A stretch of 38,644 bases of DNA from Bacteroidia bacterium (GTDB taxonomy: Bacteria > Bacteroidota > Bacteroidia > J057), in the NCBI GenBank assembly GCA_019695295.1, contig JAIBAH010000032.1, positions 1 through 38,644 on the forward strand, given 5' to 3'. Positions 19,632-27,083 of the stretch are shown here, piece by piece. The position numbers and the translations under genes were made by a program. Within the stretch, counting starts at the first letter, position 1; each line of letters opens with the position of its first letter. The notes below the pieces were generated by a model. That model was not told the origin of the DNA. It searched no databases and was given only the letters and a program-made list of their open reading frames with translations.

Positions 19632-22103
19632 TTATTTTTTGACTATTTTCATCAGGCCTTCTTCCTCCCCGGTTCTGACCTTGAGGAAGTAAATCCCCTG
19701 AGACAACCGCTCAACCGGAATCTGAATGGATTGGTTCCCTTTTTCGACTATGTATTCCGCCATTGTTTCTCCCAAAGTACTGTAAAAAGTCACAGATACA
19801 TCCTGAAGCACCGGAACCGGGAATGTCAGATTCAGGATGTTGCCGACCGGATTAGGATAGATAACCGGGCTGTTTTCGGGAGAAAGAGATACAATCCCGA
19901 CCGGCATTACCACAAAAACAGAATCAGTATAAGTAGCCTGACATCCAATGGAATCCGTTAAGGCAAGGGTTACAGTATGCCATCCGGCCGAGAGAAACGT
20001 GACATTAGGGGATTGCTGATAGGAGTTCAGGGTATAAATAGAATCTTCGAGTGTCCAGTGGTACAGCTGAGCTGCGGTATCGGCGGGGGTAAAATTCCAT
20101 AACGGGCTATTGGGACCGGGGTTGGAAACAGCGGTAAAGGATGCGTTGGGCTGAGATACAGTTACATCAATAGAATGAAGATTGTAGCAACCGTATTCAT
20201 CTTTGGTTTCTACCACATAACTGCCACTTTGGTAAAGGGTAATCTGAGCCGAATCGCTCCCCGGAATCCAGTTATAGGTATATCCCGGGCCAATATCGGC
20301 ATTGAGCAGGCTTCCCGCACAAATCGTAGTATCTGCTGGCAGCTGACTAACAGGAAGACTTACATTTTCTACTCCCAGAGTCATATCTATCCAGTTTAGC
20401 CGGCGGTTTACATAGGATTTGAGGGAGTCAATCTGATCATCATAAGTAGCACTTCCCAACTCATTCCATACGGTAAAGTTCCTCGCCTGACTTTCATATA
20501 ACCGGGATTTCAGCGTATCTATCATTACCATAAAGGAGTCATTGCTCAGCGTATTTTCCCTTAGACTAAACCAGCGGCAGGCAAGTTGTTTCCGGTAAAC
20601 CGGGTCTTCCCACATCCTCGACCACCAGAATGGAAATGGCCAGTAGGAATGGGTAATTTCCCATACCCAGCCATCCGTAGTACCCGGGTTGTCATAGTCA
20701 AAGGCGCGGTCATAGTCCCATGGCGGACCGATATGAAGCTGATTTCCGTCGGTTACTTTTTCCTTGTATAAATAAGTACTTCTGCCATAACTGTCATAGT
20801 TTACGCTAAATTCGTTGCAGATTAAAAAGTCTATAAAAGATTTGACAGAGATATACTTTCTGTATCCCTCCAGTGAATCCAGAAAATTAGTACCGTTAAG
20901 CACATTCTCAAAACTATCCGTATAGGACTTTATATAATCATGCTGAAGGGGGTGAATATCCGTTACCTTGGGATAAACGTGCTTAAACTCAACGTCCAGA
21001 TTACAGGTAGCACTATTAATCGGCAGATAGGCAGAAATCCAGTCGGCGGGGTCACCGTTTATATTCATTTCTATGATATATCCGCCGGTCAGTTCGGCAC
21101 CTGTAGTATCCGAAGGGGTTAATTTTGCGATATCCACTCTGTTTGCATTCCTTTTTACTTTTTCTGTCAGTGAATACACTCCAATGTATTCTCCATTCAA
21201 AACCAGTTCACAAAACCGGGTTCTTGGTGCATATCTTCCCATCCTGCGGGACATTTCATAAGTAATGGTATTTTTCATCAGGGTATGATCCAGATATTCG
21301 GCTTTGAAAATCCAGTCATTTTCTGAAGGCATCCCCAGTAAAGTAGTATCTATTTTATTTCCCAGAGAATCAATCAAATCGAAATCATAGTTTTTTTTGG
21401 GATAAGAAGGGCCGCTAAATCCCTGAAGCTCTGTCAGGATATCTCCTTCATAGGCAAAATTTGTCTGGTTGGTATAATTCCGGATACCGGGGCCATTGTC
21501 TATAATCTGAAGATGTGCCAGTACCTGAGGGTCATTGGGAATCTGAACTCCGTTTGTGTTGATAATGGCAATGGGGAGATTACTGGAAGTAAACATAAAA
21601 GGAAAAGCCGGATTATTTCCGAAGGTAATTTGCCAGTCATGAAGGATTCCGATATCCTGACCTGCCATATCCCGGCAGGCAAGTCTCCATACCCCGTTGG
21701 GATTTTGACCGTTATTTACATTTCCCAATACTCCATTGGCTGCAAAAGTTCCGGTAAAGGGTGCTGAAGTTGTGGACAGGGCCGGATAAGTCGTATCTCC
21801 GAGGCAGGTATTCACAAAATTGTCCTGATCTCCTCCGATTCCGGCAAATAAAGTAGCCGTAGTACCATCCGGTGATATCAGTTTCACTTCCATATCTGCG
21901 TCCCAGGTGTGTGTCATATTCAGACATACCACCTCAACCCCAAAAAAAGTATCAATGACAGCCGGCAGTCCACTTACTGGAATATCAAAATAAACAGTAG
22001 GTCCGGCGTCGGGAATTGTATCGTTGAATGTTCCGGAAAATGTCTGTGCCTGAGTTATTTTAACCCCCAGAACTAAAATCAAAAAAAGTAAAAACTTTTG
22101 CAT
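19632..22103 (-). CDS. Secreted CotH-type kinase with N-terminal P-domain and T9SS type A sorting domain
   Basis: The protein is 823 residues from the ATG at 22103, which gives a good signal peptide (MQKFLLFLILVLGVKITQAQ); upstream in-frame codons lack one. Residues 24-162 resemble a proprotein-convertase P-domain (HTWDADMEVKLISPDG, GVWRLACRDMAGQDIG). Residues about 180-575 are a CotH kinase domain. It has DWIFKAEYLD (K267, likely ATP lysine), ELVLNGEYIGVYSLTEKVK (299-317), NEFSVNYDSYGRSTYLYKE and the metal-binding IGPPWDYDRAFDYDN (458-472). Residues about 590-735 are Ig/PKD-like. Residues 745-823 are a type A sorting domain (PVIYPNPVGNILNLTFPV, GIYFLKVRTG). CotH proteins are atypical protein kinases that phosphorylate secreted or spore-coat proteins. 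This one would be exported by T9SS and act on the cell surface; its substrate is unknown. Confidence 0.88.
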   Translation of the reverse strand: MQKFLLFLILVLGVKITQAQTFSGTFNDTIPDAGPTVYFDIPVSGLPAVIDTFFGVEVVCLNMTHTWDADMEVKLISPDGTTATLFAGIGGDQDNFVNTCLGDTTYPALSTTSAPFTGTFAANGVLGNVNNGQNPNGVWRLACRDMAGQDIGILHDWQITFGNNPAFPFMFTSSNLPIAIINTNGVQIPNDPQVLAHLQIIDNGPGIRNYTNQTNFAYEGDILTELQGFSGPSYPKKNYDFDLIDSLGNKIDTTLLGMPSENDWIFKAEYLDHTLMKNTITYEMSRRMGRYAPRTRFCELVLNGEYIGVYSLTEKVKRNANRVDIAKLTPSDTTGAELTGGYIIEMNINGDPADWISAYLPINSATCNLDVEFKHVYPKVTDIHPLQHDYIKSYTDSFENVLNGTNFLDSLEGYRKYISVKSFIDFLICNEFSVNYDSYGRSTYLYKEKVTDGNQLHIGPPWDYDRAFDYDNPGTTDGWVWEITHSYWPFPFWWSRMWEDPVYRKQLACRWFSLRENTLSNDSFMVMIDTLKSRLYESQARNFTVWNELGSATYDDQIDSLKSYVNRRLNWIDMTLGVENVSLPVSQLPADTTICAGSLLNADIGPGYTYNWIPGSDSAQITLYQSGSYVVETKDEYGCYNLHSIDVTVSQPNASFTAVSNPGPNSPLWNFTPADTAAQLYHWTLEDSIYTLNSYQQSPNVTFLSAGWHTVTLALTDSIGCQATYTDSVFVVMPVGIVSLSPENSPVIYPNPVGNILNLTFPVPVLQDVSVTFYSTLGETMAEYIVEKGNQSIQIPVERLSQGIYFLKVRTGEEEGLMKIVKK

Positions 22104-22131
22104 ATTAATATATCCTGTGTCATTTTTTTGA

Positions 22132-22139
22132 CAAAAGTA
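22132..22139 (-). promoter_or_regulatory. -7-like element for the CotH-kinase gene
   Basis: The plus strand CAAAAGTA gives TACTTTTG on the minus strand, 28 bp before the ATG at 22103. It supports this start. No TTG at -33 is visible. Confidence 0.42.
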
Positions 22140-22153
22140 ATTATACTTTTTTA

Positions 22154-23032
22154 TTATTCCCACGACTTCAGATTATTTCTGTCAAAAACACATTCTGCGG
22201 AATAAAAAACCCCGTCAAACCGGTTGCTGTACCAGGGACTGAGGTCCGGTCTCATATGGGGGTTCGTCAGAACATGAATATCCTGAGCCGGCATCCAACT
22301 TTGAGCTATGAGGAAAATTTTTTCTCCGGTGTCCGTATTTTGGGCAACGTCGGTTACAATAACACAATGACCGGGAGAACCTCCGTAAATCACTACATCG
22401 CCCGCCTGAATATTTTCCCAGTCTGCTTTGGGTTTTAACTCCTTGTCAAGGGAAAGTGTTCCGGAATACATAAATACCAGGTCCATATACCGCCTGAAAG
22501 TTCCATAGGAATTGTCCGGTTTCTCCTTTTTTTCCCACTTTACAGTACTTCCGTTTATCACCGCTCTGTAGCCCTCTGCGTATTTGGTGTATTCTGCCAG
22601 ACTCCCGCTTGTAAAATGAAACTGAATTTTATCAAACTGACCGGTTTTGTAAAAATATTCAGCCCTCAGTCTCATGACAGCATCAGCACACTGCTGCAAG
22701 TCTTTTGTCCCTACATCCAGATTGATGACCGCAGCATATACGTCCTGAGGCTCTTTTAGCTGCCCGTTAAACAGCAACGCTTTGGTTCCATCCGGTTTTA
22801 ACTCCAGATTCCTGAGATATTCTGCAAAAGAACCGGAAGCTACGGGCACTCTTGAAAAGCCTTCCGGTAATAAAAACCGAGTTCCAATCGTAGTGCCTCC
22901 CGGATTTATCCAGTACGGTTTTTCTTTGTGTTCCGCTACTTTGGCGGATTGTTTTTCTTCTGCCTTTGAAGTACAGGCAAAATATCCTGTGCTGCCGAGG
23001 GATAATGTGAGGATGAGCAAAAATTTATACAT
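22154..23032 (-). CDS. DUF4846 lipoprotein, NlpC/P60-like
   Basis: The protein is 292 residues from the ATG at 23032. That start gives a lipoprotein signal with the lipid cysteine at C20 (GSTGYFAC); the frame is open to 23194, but the extension overlaps the divergent gene and lacks a signal. The body matches DUF4846. C115 lies at the start of a helix (LQQCADAVMRLRAEYFY), and a later GDVVIYGGSPGHCVIVTDV contains H222. The Cys plus GD...PGH arrangement resembles circularly permuted or divergent NlpC/P60 cysteine hydrolases that cut peptidoglycan peptides; this activity is inference. It is divergent from the amino-sugar kinase/RapZ gene and lies upstream of the CotH gene on the same strand with a 50-bp gap. 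Confidence 0.82.
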   Translation of the reverse strand: MYKFLLILTLSLGSTGYFACTSKAEEKQSAKVAEHKEKPYWINPGGTTIGTRFLLPEGFSRVPVASGSFAEYLRNLELKPDGTKALLFNGQLKEPQDVYAAVINLDVGTKDLQQCADAVMRLRAEYFYKTGQFDKIQFHFTSGSLAEYTKYAEGYRAVINGSTVKWEKKEKPDNSYGTFRRYMDLVFMYSGTLSLDKELKPKADWENIQAGDVVIYGGSPGHCVIVTDVAQNTDTGEKIFLIAQSWMPAQDIHVLTNPHMRPDLSPWYSNRFDGVFYSAECVFDRNNLKSWE

Positions 23033-23160
23033 ACTTTTTTTCTGACTAAAACGATTGAGCAAATGAAATAGTATCTTAATATCCGGAGCAGGGAAAACGT
23101 TTTTTCCAGCCTTAATGAATTTTGATGATAGCAGGAGAATAAAAATCTCAGGAAAACCCC

Positions 23161-23168
23161 TATTTTTG
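23161..23168 (+). promoter_or_regulatory. -7 element almost touching the AmgK/RapZ-fusion start codon
   Basis: TATTTTTG fits TAnnTTTG and ends 5 nt before the ATG at 23174. If used, transcription would begin at or within a few bases of the start codon, giving a leaderless or near-leaderless message. No clear -33 TTG is seen. Confidence 0.4.
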
Positions 23169-23173
23169 CATTC

Positions 23174-24628
23174 ATGAATGAAACCGTGACTCAATATATC
23201 AGCGAAACTTTCCTGGAATGGAAAGGAGAATTGCCCGAAAAGGTAGAAAGCATTGCCCCCGCCGGTAGCAGCAGACTGTATTTCAGAATTTTCTTTTCAG
23301 GAGGACAAACCTGCATTGCTACGTATAATCCGCTTCATATTCCTGAAAATGAAACTTTTATTTATTTTTCACAACACTTTCAGGCCAGACATCTTTCTGT
23401 TCCGGAAGTACTTTATATTTCCAATAGCAAAGACTTGTATTTTCAGACGGACGCAGGGGAAAGCGCTCTTATGGACTTACTGAAAAAGGAACTTCATTCG
23501 GATAAAGTTTATCAGTTTTACCAAAAAGCACTCAGTCAGCTTGCCCGGATTCAGATAGCAGGAGATGAAGGACTGGATTACAGCAGATGCTACGGCCCGT
23601 CTCTGTTTGATAAAGACGCTATTTTATATGATTTGAATTATTTCCTGTTTTATTTTGTCAATACATTGGGGATTCCCTATGATAAAACGCAGCTTCTCGA
23701 TGATTTTGAGCTTCTTGCCGAATTTTTAAGCAGGGAAACCCATCAGTATTTTATGTTTCGGGATTTTCAGAGCCGGAATATCATGGTCAATGGAGAAAAT
23801 CTTACCTTTATTGATTATCAGGGTGGAATGAAAGGCCCGCTTCAGTATGATGTAGTCTCTTTGCTGTGGCAGGCCAAAGCAGCACTTCCCGGAGAATGGA
23901 AAAGCAGCCTTCTTGATTTTTACTTCAGTGAAGTAAGCCGGCTTACTCCGAAGCCCATTGATAAAACCACTTTTTATCAGAATTACAATGGGTTTGTCCT
24001 GATTCGTATGCTTCAGACTTTTGGTTCATACGGATTTCGGGGGTTGTTTGAGCGGCGGCCTTATTTTCTTTCAGCCATTCCCGCAGCACTTGCACAGCTC
24101 AGGAGTTATCTCAGCAGTACAGAAATTCCGGTACGTACACAGATACTTGAAAAATTGCTGCACCAGATTACTTCGGATGAAATCAGAAAAAAATTTGAAT
24201 TTCCGGTAGCTTCCTCCGAGAGTAAACTCACCGTCCGGATTATGAGTTTTGCGTATAAAAACGGGATTCCGGCGGACTCTTCCAATAGCGGAGGCGGTTT
24301 TGTGTTTGACTGCCGGGCCTTGCATAATCCCGGCAGATACGAGCCTTATGCAGAACTGACAGGAAGGGATGAAACCGTGAAGCAGTTTCTTCTGACTCAG
24401 TCTGTGATGCCTTCTTTTTTGCAGAATGTATATACCATCGCAGATATTTCAGTGCAAAATTATCTCGAAAGAGGCTTTGAAAACCTGATGATTTGTTTCG
24501 GATGTACGGGGGGAAAACACAGAAGTGTGTTTGCTGCCGATAGCTTAGCCAAATACCTCAAGGATAAATACAACGTCAGAATTGAACTGCTTCACAGGGA
24601 AAGAGGATGGGAAAAGGAAATCCTGTAA
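23174..24628 (+). CDS. AmgK-like amino-sugar kinase fused to a RapZ C-terminal domain
   Basis: This is a 484-residue two-domain protein. Residues about 15-310 form an aminoglycoside-phosphotransferase-fold kinase resembling AmgK, the anomeric N-acetylmuramate/N-acetylglucosamine 1-kinase. The catalytic loop is FRDFQSRN (D197, N202), the metal aspartate is D214 in FIDYQGG, and GPLQYDVVSLLW follows as in AmgK. Residues about 351-484 match the C-terminal domain of RapZ (DCRALHNPG at 379-387, GCTGGKHRS at 443-451, LLHRERGW). In E. coli this domain binds glucosamine-6-phosphate and RNA and adjusts GlmS levels. The gene lies 23 bp before a MurU-like nucleotidyltransferase, the partner of AmgK in peptidoglycan sugar recycling. 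A role in MurNAc/GlcNAc salvage with sensing by the fused domain is inferred. Confidence 0.85.
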   Translation: MNETVTQYISETFLEWKGELPEKVESIAPAGSSRLYFRIFFSGGQTCIATYNPLHIPENETFIYFSQHFQARHLSVPEVLYISNSKDLYFQTDAGESALMDLLKKELHSDKVYQFYQKALSQLARIQIAGDEGLDYSRCYGPSLFDKDAILYDLNYFLFYFVNTLGIPYDKTQLLDDFELLAEFLSRETHQYFMFRDFQSRNIMVNGENLTFIDYQGGMKGPLQYDVVSLLWQAKAALPGEWKSSLLDFYFSEVSRLTPKPIDKTTFYQNYNGFVLIRMLQTFGSYGFRGLFERRPYFLSAIPAALAQLRSYLSSTEIPVRTQILEKLLHQITSDEIRKKFEFPVASSESKLTVRIMSFAYKNGIPADSSNSGGGFVFDCRALHNPGRYEPYAELTGRDETVKQFLLTQSVMPSFLQNVYTIADISVQNYLERGFENLMICFGCTGGKHRSVFAADSLAKYLKDKYNVRIELLHRERGWEKEIL

Positions 24629-24651
24629 TTTTTAAAAAAAGCTGAAAAAAT

Positions 24652-25374
24652 ATGAAAGCCATGATACTTGCCGCAGGACTCGGCACAAGAATGCAGCCGA
24701 TTACCCTCACCCGGCCCAAGGCGTTGGTTGAGGTAAAGGGAAAAACGATGCTGCAGCGAAATATAGAATATCTGAAAGCCGCAGGTGTGACAGAAATCGT
24801 TGTCAATGTACATCATTTTGTGGAGCAAATCATTGAGTTTATCCGCTCAAATAACGATTTTGGTGTCCGGATTCATATCTCAGACGAAACGGATGCCGTA
24901 CTGGAAACCGGAGGCGGACTCAAGCGGGCTCAATCTTTTCTGGAGGAAGAACAGGCCTTTATCCTGATGAATGTAGATATTCTGACGGATTTATCCCTTA
25001 CGGATATGATGGCGTTTCATCAAAATCAAGCAGATGCACTGGCTACCCTTGCGGTAACCCAAAGAGATTCTTCCCGGCTTTTGCTTTTTAATCCTGAAAA
25101 TCAGCTGAAAGGCTGGAAAAATGAAAAAACCGGCGAAAAAATTATCCTCAATGCGGATGAGTCATGCCTTGTCTCCAGAGCGTTCAGCGGAATACATATT
25201 CTTTCTTCCCGTATTTTTTCCCATATGAAATCCGAAGGAAAATATTCCATAATCAATACCTATCTGGAACTTGCGGAAAAGTTTCCCATTTACGGATATG
25301 ACCACAGCGAAGGAATATTTCTGGATGTAGGCAGGCCGGAAGTCATTACAGTAGCCGAGAATCTGATTGAGTGA
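24652..25374 (+). CDS. MurU-like sugar-1-phosphate nucleotidyltransferase
   Basis: This 240-residue protein has the sugar nucleotidyltransferase signature AAGLGTRMQPITLTRPKAL (G9-L25, with K23), the metal aspartate in LMNVDIL and a second metal site in FLDVGRPE near the C-terminus. Its length and lack of an acyltransferase tail fit MurU (N-acetylmuramate-1-phosphate uridylyltransferase) and related short enzymes rather than GlmU. Immediate location behind the AmgK-like kinase (23 bp, same strand) strongly favours UDP-MurNAc or UDP-GlcNAc formation in cell-wall recycling, bypassing de novo synthesis. Mannose-1-phosphate guanylyltransferase is an alternative from sequence alone. It ends before a short hairpin shared with the converging DinB-like gene. 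Confidence 0.86.
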   Translation: MKAMILAAGLGTRMQPITLTRPKALVEVKGKTMLQRNIEYLKAAGVTEIVVNVHHFVEQIIEFIRSNNDFGVRIHISDETDAVLETGGGLKRAQSFLEEEQAFILMNVDILTDLSLTDMMAFHQNQADALATLAVTQRDSSRLLLFNPENQLKGWKNEKTGEKIILNADESCLVSRAFSGIHILSSRIFSHMKSEGKYSIINTYLELAEKFPIYGYDHSEGIFLDVGRPEVITVAENLIE

Positions 25375-26075: not shown

Positions 26076-27083
26076 ATGATTCAGATTATCCGGGATTTTA
26101 TACGGGTTTTTTTTCGGTTTGGGAGGGAGATTCTGATTCAGGAATTTCACATCCGCAAAACCCTGAAGCCGCTTCTCCACCGGTTTTTGATAAAGGGAGA
26201 TAACACTTTTACCGAAAAAGACATCCGGCGAATGTGTTATTATGCCCGCTTTGTCCCGGCTGTGTCCGGAGCCGCTTACGGAACTCTGGTGAACCGCTCT
26301 CTTACCACAACAGAAAGACGGCTGATGCTGCTGCTGAGCGCTGCTGCACCGGTTTTTGATGATTATTTTGACGATAAATCCATGATGGCTTCCCGCCTGA
26401 AAACGATGATTGAAAACCCTCAGGCCTGTATTGCCGAAAACGCCAAAGAAAAAATATTTCTGAACCTTCTCTGTACCATCAGCGAGGGCGTAAAGGATAT
26501 GGATTTCTTTATGGAAGTCTGCCGGAAAGTGTATCAGTCTCAGGTGGACGCCCTTATGCAGGAATCGGCAGACACTCCCGCCGAAACGCTTAGAAAAATC
26601 ACGATGGACAAAGGCGGGTATTCTACATTGCTGTTTATTACCCTGATGGAGTATCCTCCGGTAAAGGGTGACAAGGAGGCAATTTACTATTTTGGCGGAA
26701 TGGTTCAGTGGGTAGATGATATTTTTGATGTATATGACGATACCCGGGACGGAATCCGGACACCGGCAAGCACAGCCGGAGATATCATAGAACTCAGGGC
26801 TGAATTTGAAAGCGGATTAATGGAGCTCCGGCGGTTGTTTATGAACCTGGACCTTCCTGAAGGGCAAAAACAGCGTTTTCTGGATTTACAATGGTTCTTC
26901 TTTACAAGGGCATTTGTTTGTCTGGAACAGTTCAGCAACCTGGAAAAGCAGTATCCGAAACCCTTTAAGCCCGATAGGTACACCCGTAAAGACCTCATTT
27001 GTGACATGGAAAAGGCCTCAAATATCATAAAATGGCTTAAATATTTTTATAATTGGAAAGAAACTTTAAAATCTTGTGATTAA
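26076..27083 (+). CDS. Class I isoprenoid-synthase-fold protein, function unknown
   Basis: This 335-residue, largely helical protein has two Asp-rich motifs in the spacing of class I isoprenoid synthases: DDYFDD (95-100) and QWVDDIFDVYDD (211-222). The latter contains the QxxDDxxD element shared by prenyl-diphosphate synthases and squalene/phytoene-type enzymes. A KGG motif (179-181) precedes the second site, as expected for a diphosphate-contacting residue. Both motifs appear intact, so metal-diphosphate chemistry is likely. Overall sequence is not that of a standard FPP/GGPP or phytoene synthase, and it has an amphipathic basic N-terminus (RDFIRVFFRFGREI). It may be a terpene synthase or head-to-head prenyltransferase; the product is unknown. 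A two-component system starts 37 bp downstream on the same strand. Confidence 0.7.
   Translation: MIQIIRDFIRVFFRFGREILIQEFHIRKTLKPLLHRFLIKGDNTFTEKDIRRMCYYARFVPAVSGAAYGTLVNRSLTTTERRLMLLLSAAAPVFDDYFDDKSMMASRLKTMIENPQACIAENAKEKIFLNLLCTISEGVKDMDFFMEVCRKVYQSQVDALMQESADTPAETLRKITMDKGGYSTLLFITLMEYPPVKGDKEAIYYFGGMVQWVDDIFDVYDDTRDGIRTPASTAGDIIELRAEFESGLMELRRLFMNLDLPEGQKQRFLDLQWFFFTRAFVCLEQFSNLEKQYPKPFKPDRYTRKDLICDMEKASNIIKWLKYFYNWKETLKSCD

Follow-up and report, generated by a model that had tools for sequence, protein, structure and literature searches.

A fusion of an AmgK-like kinase with a RapZ C-terminal domain in Bacteroidota, a candidate bifunctional enzyme of MurNAc salvage

Gene organization of the locus

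The window analysed here is the whole stretch of 38,644 nucleotides from a Bacteroidia bacterium (contig JAIBAH010000032.1). On its forward strand, positions 23174-24628 form one open reading frame of 484 amino acids (aa) that joins an AmgK-like kinase to the C-terminal domain of RapZ (RapZ-C), with no interruption across both domains. Pfam identifies an APH domain (PF01636) at aa 56-251 (41 bits against a cut-off of 23) and PF22740 at aa 352-476 (115 bits against a cut-off of 27); the kinase part as a whole comprises aa 1-335 (23174-24178, + strand) and the RapZ-C domain is encoded by positions 24227-24601 (+). The AlphaFold2 model of the whole fusion has a mean pLDDT of 94.2 and a pTM of 0.88, suggesting that the kinase and RapZ-C parts are both ordered; modelled alone, RapZ-C gives a pLDDT of 91.5 and a pTM of 0.87. 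PF22740 is single-copy in the source genome, and PF03668, the N-terminal P-loop domain of RapZ, has zero matches across that whole genome. The fusion is genuine, neither a chance product nor an assembly error, since a fusion of the same kind recurs in 27 of the 296 Bacteroidota genomes sampled.

Downstream of the fusion, across a 23-bp intergenic spacer (24629-24651, +), lies a gene for a MurU-like sugar-1-phosphate nucleotidyltransferase of 240 aa (24652-25374, +). Its top NCBIfam model is NF045761 (MurU), the best among 36 matching families with a score of 145 bits, which is under the equivalog cut-off of 250. The two genes adjoin in 21 of the 27 fused loci in the sample (in the other six, MurU is elsewhere in the genome), and MurU lies within the locus in 52 of the best 80 of at least 592 relatives from a scan of genome contigs. 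The fusion gene and the MurU-like gene probably form one operon.

Upstream, a divergent DUF4846 gene (22154-23194, -) has a listed TTG start that overlaps the start of the fusion; a later ATG, followed by a lipoprotein-like signal, is the likelier start. Next to it, positions 19632-22163 (-) encode a secreted CotH kinase-like protein with a P-domain and a C-terminal sorting domain. Further downstream, positions 26076-27083 hold a 335-aa open reading frame with no Pfam or NCBIfam match, immediately upstream of a response regulator gene.

Kinase part

The kinase part has the APH fold with its catalytic residues intact, and its nearest named family is AmgK. In the catalytic loop RDFQSRN (aa 196-202; 23759-23779, +), R196, D197 and N202 are the same in all 91 fusions compared, as are D214 and Q216 of the metal-binding motif IDYQGG (aa 213-218; 23810-23827, +). 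The top NCBIfam matches are both AmgK models (NF045759 and NF045698), whose equivalog cut-offs are not reached by the fusion (61 bits against 550 and 25 against 500); AmgK models likewise come first in NCBIfam for the kinase parts of the seven relatives that were scanned. The top PDB structural match of the fusion is 3csv (E 6.7e-14), the sequence of which scores 240 bits against NF045698. No HAD model was matched by the fusion in the NCBIfam scan.

RapZ C-terminal domain

RapZ has been studied as a GlcN6P-sensing RNA adapter in enterobacteria, and the conservation of its pocket domain extends well beyond them. The RapZ-C model superimposes on the C-terminal domain of E. coli RapZ (5o5s) with a Z score of 19.7 and an rmsd of 1.7 over 123 residues; structural matches other than RapZ all have a Z score of 7.4 or less. 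A preliminary description of this DNA had proposed an AmgK-like kinase continuous with RapZ-C, the loss of the normal RapZ P-loop domain and a MurU-like gene 23 bp downstream, and had suggested comparing the structures of both domains. Each of these proposals is borne out: APH and PF22740 (115 bits) are found in one 484-aa frame whose catalytic residues are invariant, AmgK and NF045761 are the best NCBIfam models for the two proteins, PF03668 is found nowhere in the genome, and the structure comparison leads from the kinase to 3csv (AmgK-like by NF045698) and from RapZ-C to 5o5s.

In E. coli RapZ, the loop C247-S254 lines a pocket in which malonate or sulphate is held by T248, G249, H252 and R253 together with H190 (PMC5737377), and H190 is essential to activity (PMC9841335). 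The corresponding loop of the fusion, CTGGKHRS (aa 444-451; 24503-24526, +), is a phosphate-binding loop of the CX5R(S) form. Among the 78 RapZ-C domains in which pocket residues were counted, C444, T445, G446, G447, H449 and S451 are found in all and R450 in 77; the sole exception, from a metagenome-assembled genome (L099 1067-1480), has His in place of the loop Arg (CTGGQHHS). The sequence NPGR (aa 385-388; 24326-24337, +) aligns to N188-P189-H190-W191 of E. coli RapZ, and there the picture is different: all 78 relatives have Gly at the H190 position, and 77 of them have Arg or Lys at the W191 position. Four of the five pocket residues are therefore kept and H190 is lost; the phosphate loop is preserved and the remainder of the pocket is remodelled. 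The positions of K194, R211, R238 and K251, which form part of the sRNA-facing basic surface in E. coli (PMC9841335), are mostly unconserved in the Bacteroidota clade, which makes RNA binding by these domains unlikely.

Distribution in Bacteroidota

RapZ-C was found in 36 of the 296 genomes, fused to the kinase in 27 and as a split form in nine. The best 80 of the at least 592 relatives in the contig scan span Chitinophagaceae, Saprospiraceae and Bacteroidales (e.g. Phocaeicola coprophilus). The kinase clade is present in all 36 RapZ-C genomes, and so is the MurU clade, including an orthologue of the MurU-like protein described here; at a comparable E-value, MurU was found in none of 34 RapZ-C-negative genomes. 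Kinase, RapZ-C and MurU are one unit, hereafter the module. No earlier description of the fusion was found in the literature searched; it is a widespread variant of the AmgK-MurU route, unstudied as far as that literature shows.

In seven of the nine split forms, kinase, RapZ-C and MurU are adjacent in that order. The other two, in genomes G271 and G180, have a RapZ-C gene alone, distant from the kinase, and no MurU adjoins the kinase (L149 5086-5493 and L150 5073-6122; L151 4938-5336 and L152 5214-6188). At L037 3682-5103, the kinase and RapZ-C reading frames are 6 bp apart and a congeneric genome (G124) carries the fused gene; this locus is probably a recent split of a fused gene. Beside the split forms of one family (L031-L036, family f4), the other strand carries genes for small membrane proteins that resemble exosortases by eye only.

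Co-occurrence with recycling genes

AnmK makes MurNAc-6-P from anhydro-MurNAc. On the catabolic route MurNAc-6-P is consumed by the etherase MurQ, which links MurNAc to the GlcNAc-6-P/GlcN6P pool; on the anabolic route of Pseudomonas, MupP dephosphorylates it, and AmgK and MurU then act. Deletion of murQ in E. coli K-12 leads to a build-up of MurNAc-6-P (PMC5371407). The exo-muramidase NamZ is a source of free MurNAc.

AnmK alone was rejected as a marker of the module (26 of 36 RapZ-C genomes against 181 of 260 others). MurQ was found in all 119 tested genomes with AnmK and without RapZ-C (39 and 80 in two sets) and is missing from 13 of the 26 with both AnmK and RapZ-C, the source genome among them. 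In the search that covered the 39 and the 26, nearly all genomes also gave weak matches, mostly in reading frames as long as GlmS (about 610-630 aa), and these were left out of the MurQ count. AnmK without MurQ was thus seen only together with the module (Fisher p 9e-12 by genome); by family, the pattern occurs in 7/9 against 0 of at least 40 (p ~4e-7). The association is not strict: 10 of the 36 RapZ-C genomes are without AnmK and 16 keep MurQ, so RapZ-C is not strictly tied to MurNAc-6-P made by AnmK.

MupP (NF009696) is over its cut-off in none of the 36 RapZ-C genomes, a strict cut-off that Caulobacter, reported to have MupP, also fails to reach. The source genome has no MupP match at E<=1e-8; its four HAD_2 proteins, one of which is a beta-phosphoglucomutase by model, were rejected as candidates with at most 30 bits against 359. 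NamZ is present in 35 of the 36. The preliminary description had placed the locus in peptidoglycan recycling and advised surveying its co-occurrence with MurU-like and MurNAc-6-P recycling genes. The surveys agree with that placement: MurU accompanies RapZ-C throughout, the module replaces or accompanies MurQ (AnmK itself being uninformative), and NamZ adjoins kinase-MurU pairs of the family described below.

Only two lineages were found in which a kinase-MurU pair lacks RapZ-C. In genome G009, which is without AnmK and MurQ, MurU follows immediately upon the end of the kinase. In family f18, the pair is divergent in sequence and NamZ adjoins it (by Pfam in G169; by position in G010, G048 and G110); no f18 genome is among the AnmK matches. 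Where the pair is without RapZ-C, no AnmK-made MurNAc-6-P is therefore to be expected. Two f18 loci on the reverse strand (L154 1606-6210 and L155 1141-5745) contain the kinase, a MurU-like protein with hexapeptide repeats, NamZ and a sodium:solute symporter; it is possible that this operon serves the salvage of free MurNAc.

The Cys-X5-Arg-Ser loop

The Cys-X5-Arg-Ser loop of RapZ-C has the form of the CX5R signature of Cys-based phosphatases. Judged from neighbouring proteins, CX5R[ST] is expected 0.004 times per 125 aa, and C-x2-G-x2-R-[ST] is absent from 685 such proteins. Sequence homology to these phosphatases was rejected, a PDB profile search having given only RapZ and two weak unrelated matches. 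In structure comparison the dual-specificity phosphatases tie with phosphofructokinase and P-loop folds (DUSP1 and DUSP10 at Z 5.1-5.3 and an rmsd of 3.2-3.4 across 86-89 residues, with unrelated folds scoring alike), which is no proof of a phosphatase fold.

Mutation of the loop Cys in E. coli RapZ (C247A or C247S) abolishes activity; its authors state that the SH group of C247 may have a catalytic function, and describe density in crystals with GlcN6P as "likely a chemically transformed product" (PMC9841335). The same mutants also lost RNA binding (PMC9841335), so that the phenotype is suggestive only and need not mean catalysis. A comparison of the loop with CX5R phosphatases was not met in the literature searched: the word "phosphatase" is absent from PMC9841335, and no paper combining RapZ with tyrosine phosphatases and the P-loop was found. 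We raise the tentative idea that RapZ-C domains, perhaps including that of canonical RapZ, act through their Cys as phosphatases of amino-sugar phosphates and make up a class that has gone unrecognised. In Bacteroidota, one such domain may have been combined with a salvage kinase, yielding a bifunctional enzyme that converts MurNAc-6-P to MurNAc-1-P.

Proposed function of the module

Leaving aside any catalysis by RapZ-C, the unit of kinase, RapZ-C and MurU is very probably a MurNAc salvage module. Our fuller reading, to which we give a rough probability of 0.4, is that Bacteroidota have an anabolic MurNAc salvage route in which RapZ-C does the MupP step. AnmK would convert anhydro-MurNAc to MurNAc-6-P; the CX5R(S) loop of RapZ-C would bind the 6-phosphate and its Cys attack the phosphate, releasing MurNAc; the fused kinase would phosphorylate C1 to give MurNAc-1-P; and the MurU-like enzyme would make UDP-MurNAc, bypassing MurA and MurB. 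That the sugar is MurNAc is itself inferred. This reading draws on the architecture and its conservation, the co-occurrence of the three parts, the intact kinase motifs, the invariant loop and the restriction of AnmK without MurQ to genomes with the module. Our confidence is held down by the RapZ-C genomes that lack AnmK or keep MurQ, by the near-universal NamZ and by the inseparability of the parts: kinase, RapZ-C and MurU are nearly always together, so the MurQ pattern is not assignable to RapZ-C alone. The strictness of the MupP cut-off and the occurrence of other HAD phosphatases in RapZ-C genomes also count against this reading.

A close rival, for which a tentative case can likewise be made, is that RapZ-C is a non-catalytic sensor: on binding GlcN6P or a different amino-sugar 6-phosphate, it would adjust the activity of the fused kinase and so keep salvage and de novo synthesis in balance. 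Fusion to the target, or a gene next to that of the target, is common among regulators; the pocket residues T248, G249, H252 and R253 persist; and RapZ-C is retained in the ten AnmK-less genomes. Against this, every relative has Gly in place of H190, on which the activity of E. coli RapZ depends (PMC9841335), and neither the AnmK/MurQ pattern nor the invariant Cys is predicted by sensing alone. The loop and that pattern point to a catalytic role at least as well as to a sensor, and the phosphatase reading accounts for more of the data. GlcN6P sensing by the kinase through RapZ-C, as proposed in the preliminary description, is not supported in that form, given the remodelled H190 and W191 positions and the absence of MurQ from half of the RapZ-C genomes with AnmK.

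It is distinctly less probable that RapZ-C is a non-catalytic oligomerisation or scaffold domain, one that keeps the kinase dimeric or tetrameric and serves as a docking site for MurU. The E. coli domain dimerises alone, D182 being needed for its self-interaction (PMC7073468), the equivalent D379 is invariant, and kinase, RapZ-C and MurU always co-occur; however, the most conserved residues form the phosphate-binding loop and no interface, some RapZ-C genes are split off and, in G271 and G180, even unlinked, and there are kinases without RapZ-C (G009, f18). Least probable of all is that another nucleotide sugar is made (e.g. with GlcNAc or a glycan sugar as the starting point) and the likeness to AmgK and MurU misleads: NTP transferases are a broad family and both proteins score well under the equivalog cut-offs, but AmgK models rank top for the kinase part in all relatives scanned, and NamZ (beside the f18 pair and in nearly all RapZ-C genomes) and the link to MurQ absence point to MurNAc.

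If bifunctional salvage is correct, it would explain muramic acid recycling in many MurQ-less Bacteroidota and name the missing phosphatase, and it would offer a chemical reading of the unexplained findings on C247S and the transformed ligand in E. coli RapZ. The pathway in which RapZ-C is found here lacks one defined step, and its hosts are without the RNA-handling half of RapZ.

Comparison with known systems

With Cys-based phosphatases (e.g. dual-specificity phosphatases), the likeness consists of the Cys-X5-Arg-Ser loop, with Gly at Cys+3, and its location, in the structure of the related RapZ, at a phosphate-binding pocket; RapZ-C differs in having no detected sequence homology to them, and its structural likeness is at the level of unrelated folds. 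RapZ of E. coli (YvcJ in B. subtilis) has the fold of the C-terminal domain and the CTGG-x-HRS loop in common with the Bacteroidota fusion. The latter differs in lacking the P-loop N-domain, in the joining of RapZ-C to a kinase, in the replacement of H190 by Gly and W191 by Arg or Lys, and in the loss of several RNA-facing basic residues.

The f18 pairs resemble the module in having a related kinase beside a MurU-like gene. They differ in being without RapZ-C and AnmK, in their longer nucleotidyltransferase with hexapeptide repeats and in the adjoining NamZ.

A further close parallel is the AmgK-MurU-MupP recycling route of Pseudomonas putida, P. aeruginosa and Caulobacter. Relative to that route, no MupP is over cut-off in the 36 genomes, the kinase carries RapZ-C, and the Bacteroidota proteins are far under the AmgK and MurU equivalog cut-offs. 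As in that route, the kinase and nucleotidyltransferase are encoded together, and AnmK occurs without MurQ in half of the AnmK-bearing RapZ-C genomes, the source genome included. The AmgK-MurU route underlies intrinsic fosfomycin tolerance in Pseudomonas, and the same may hold in Bacteroidota that carry the module.
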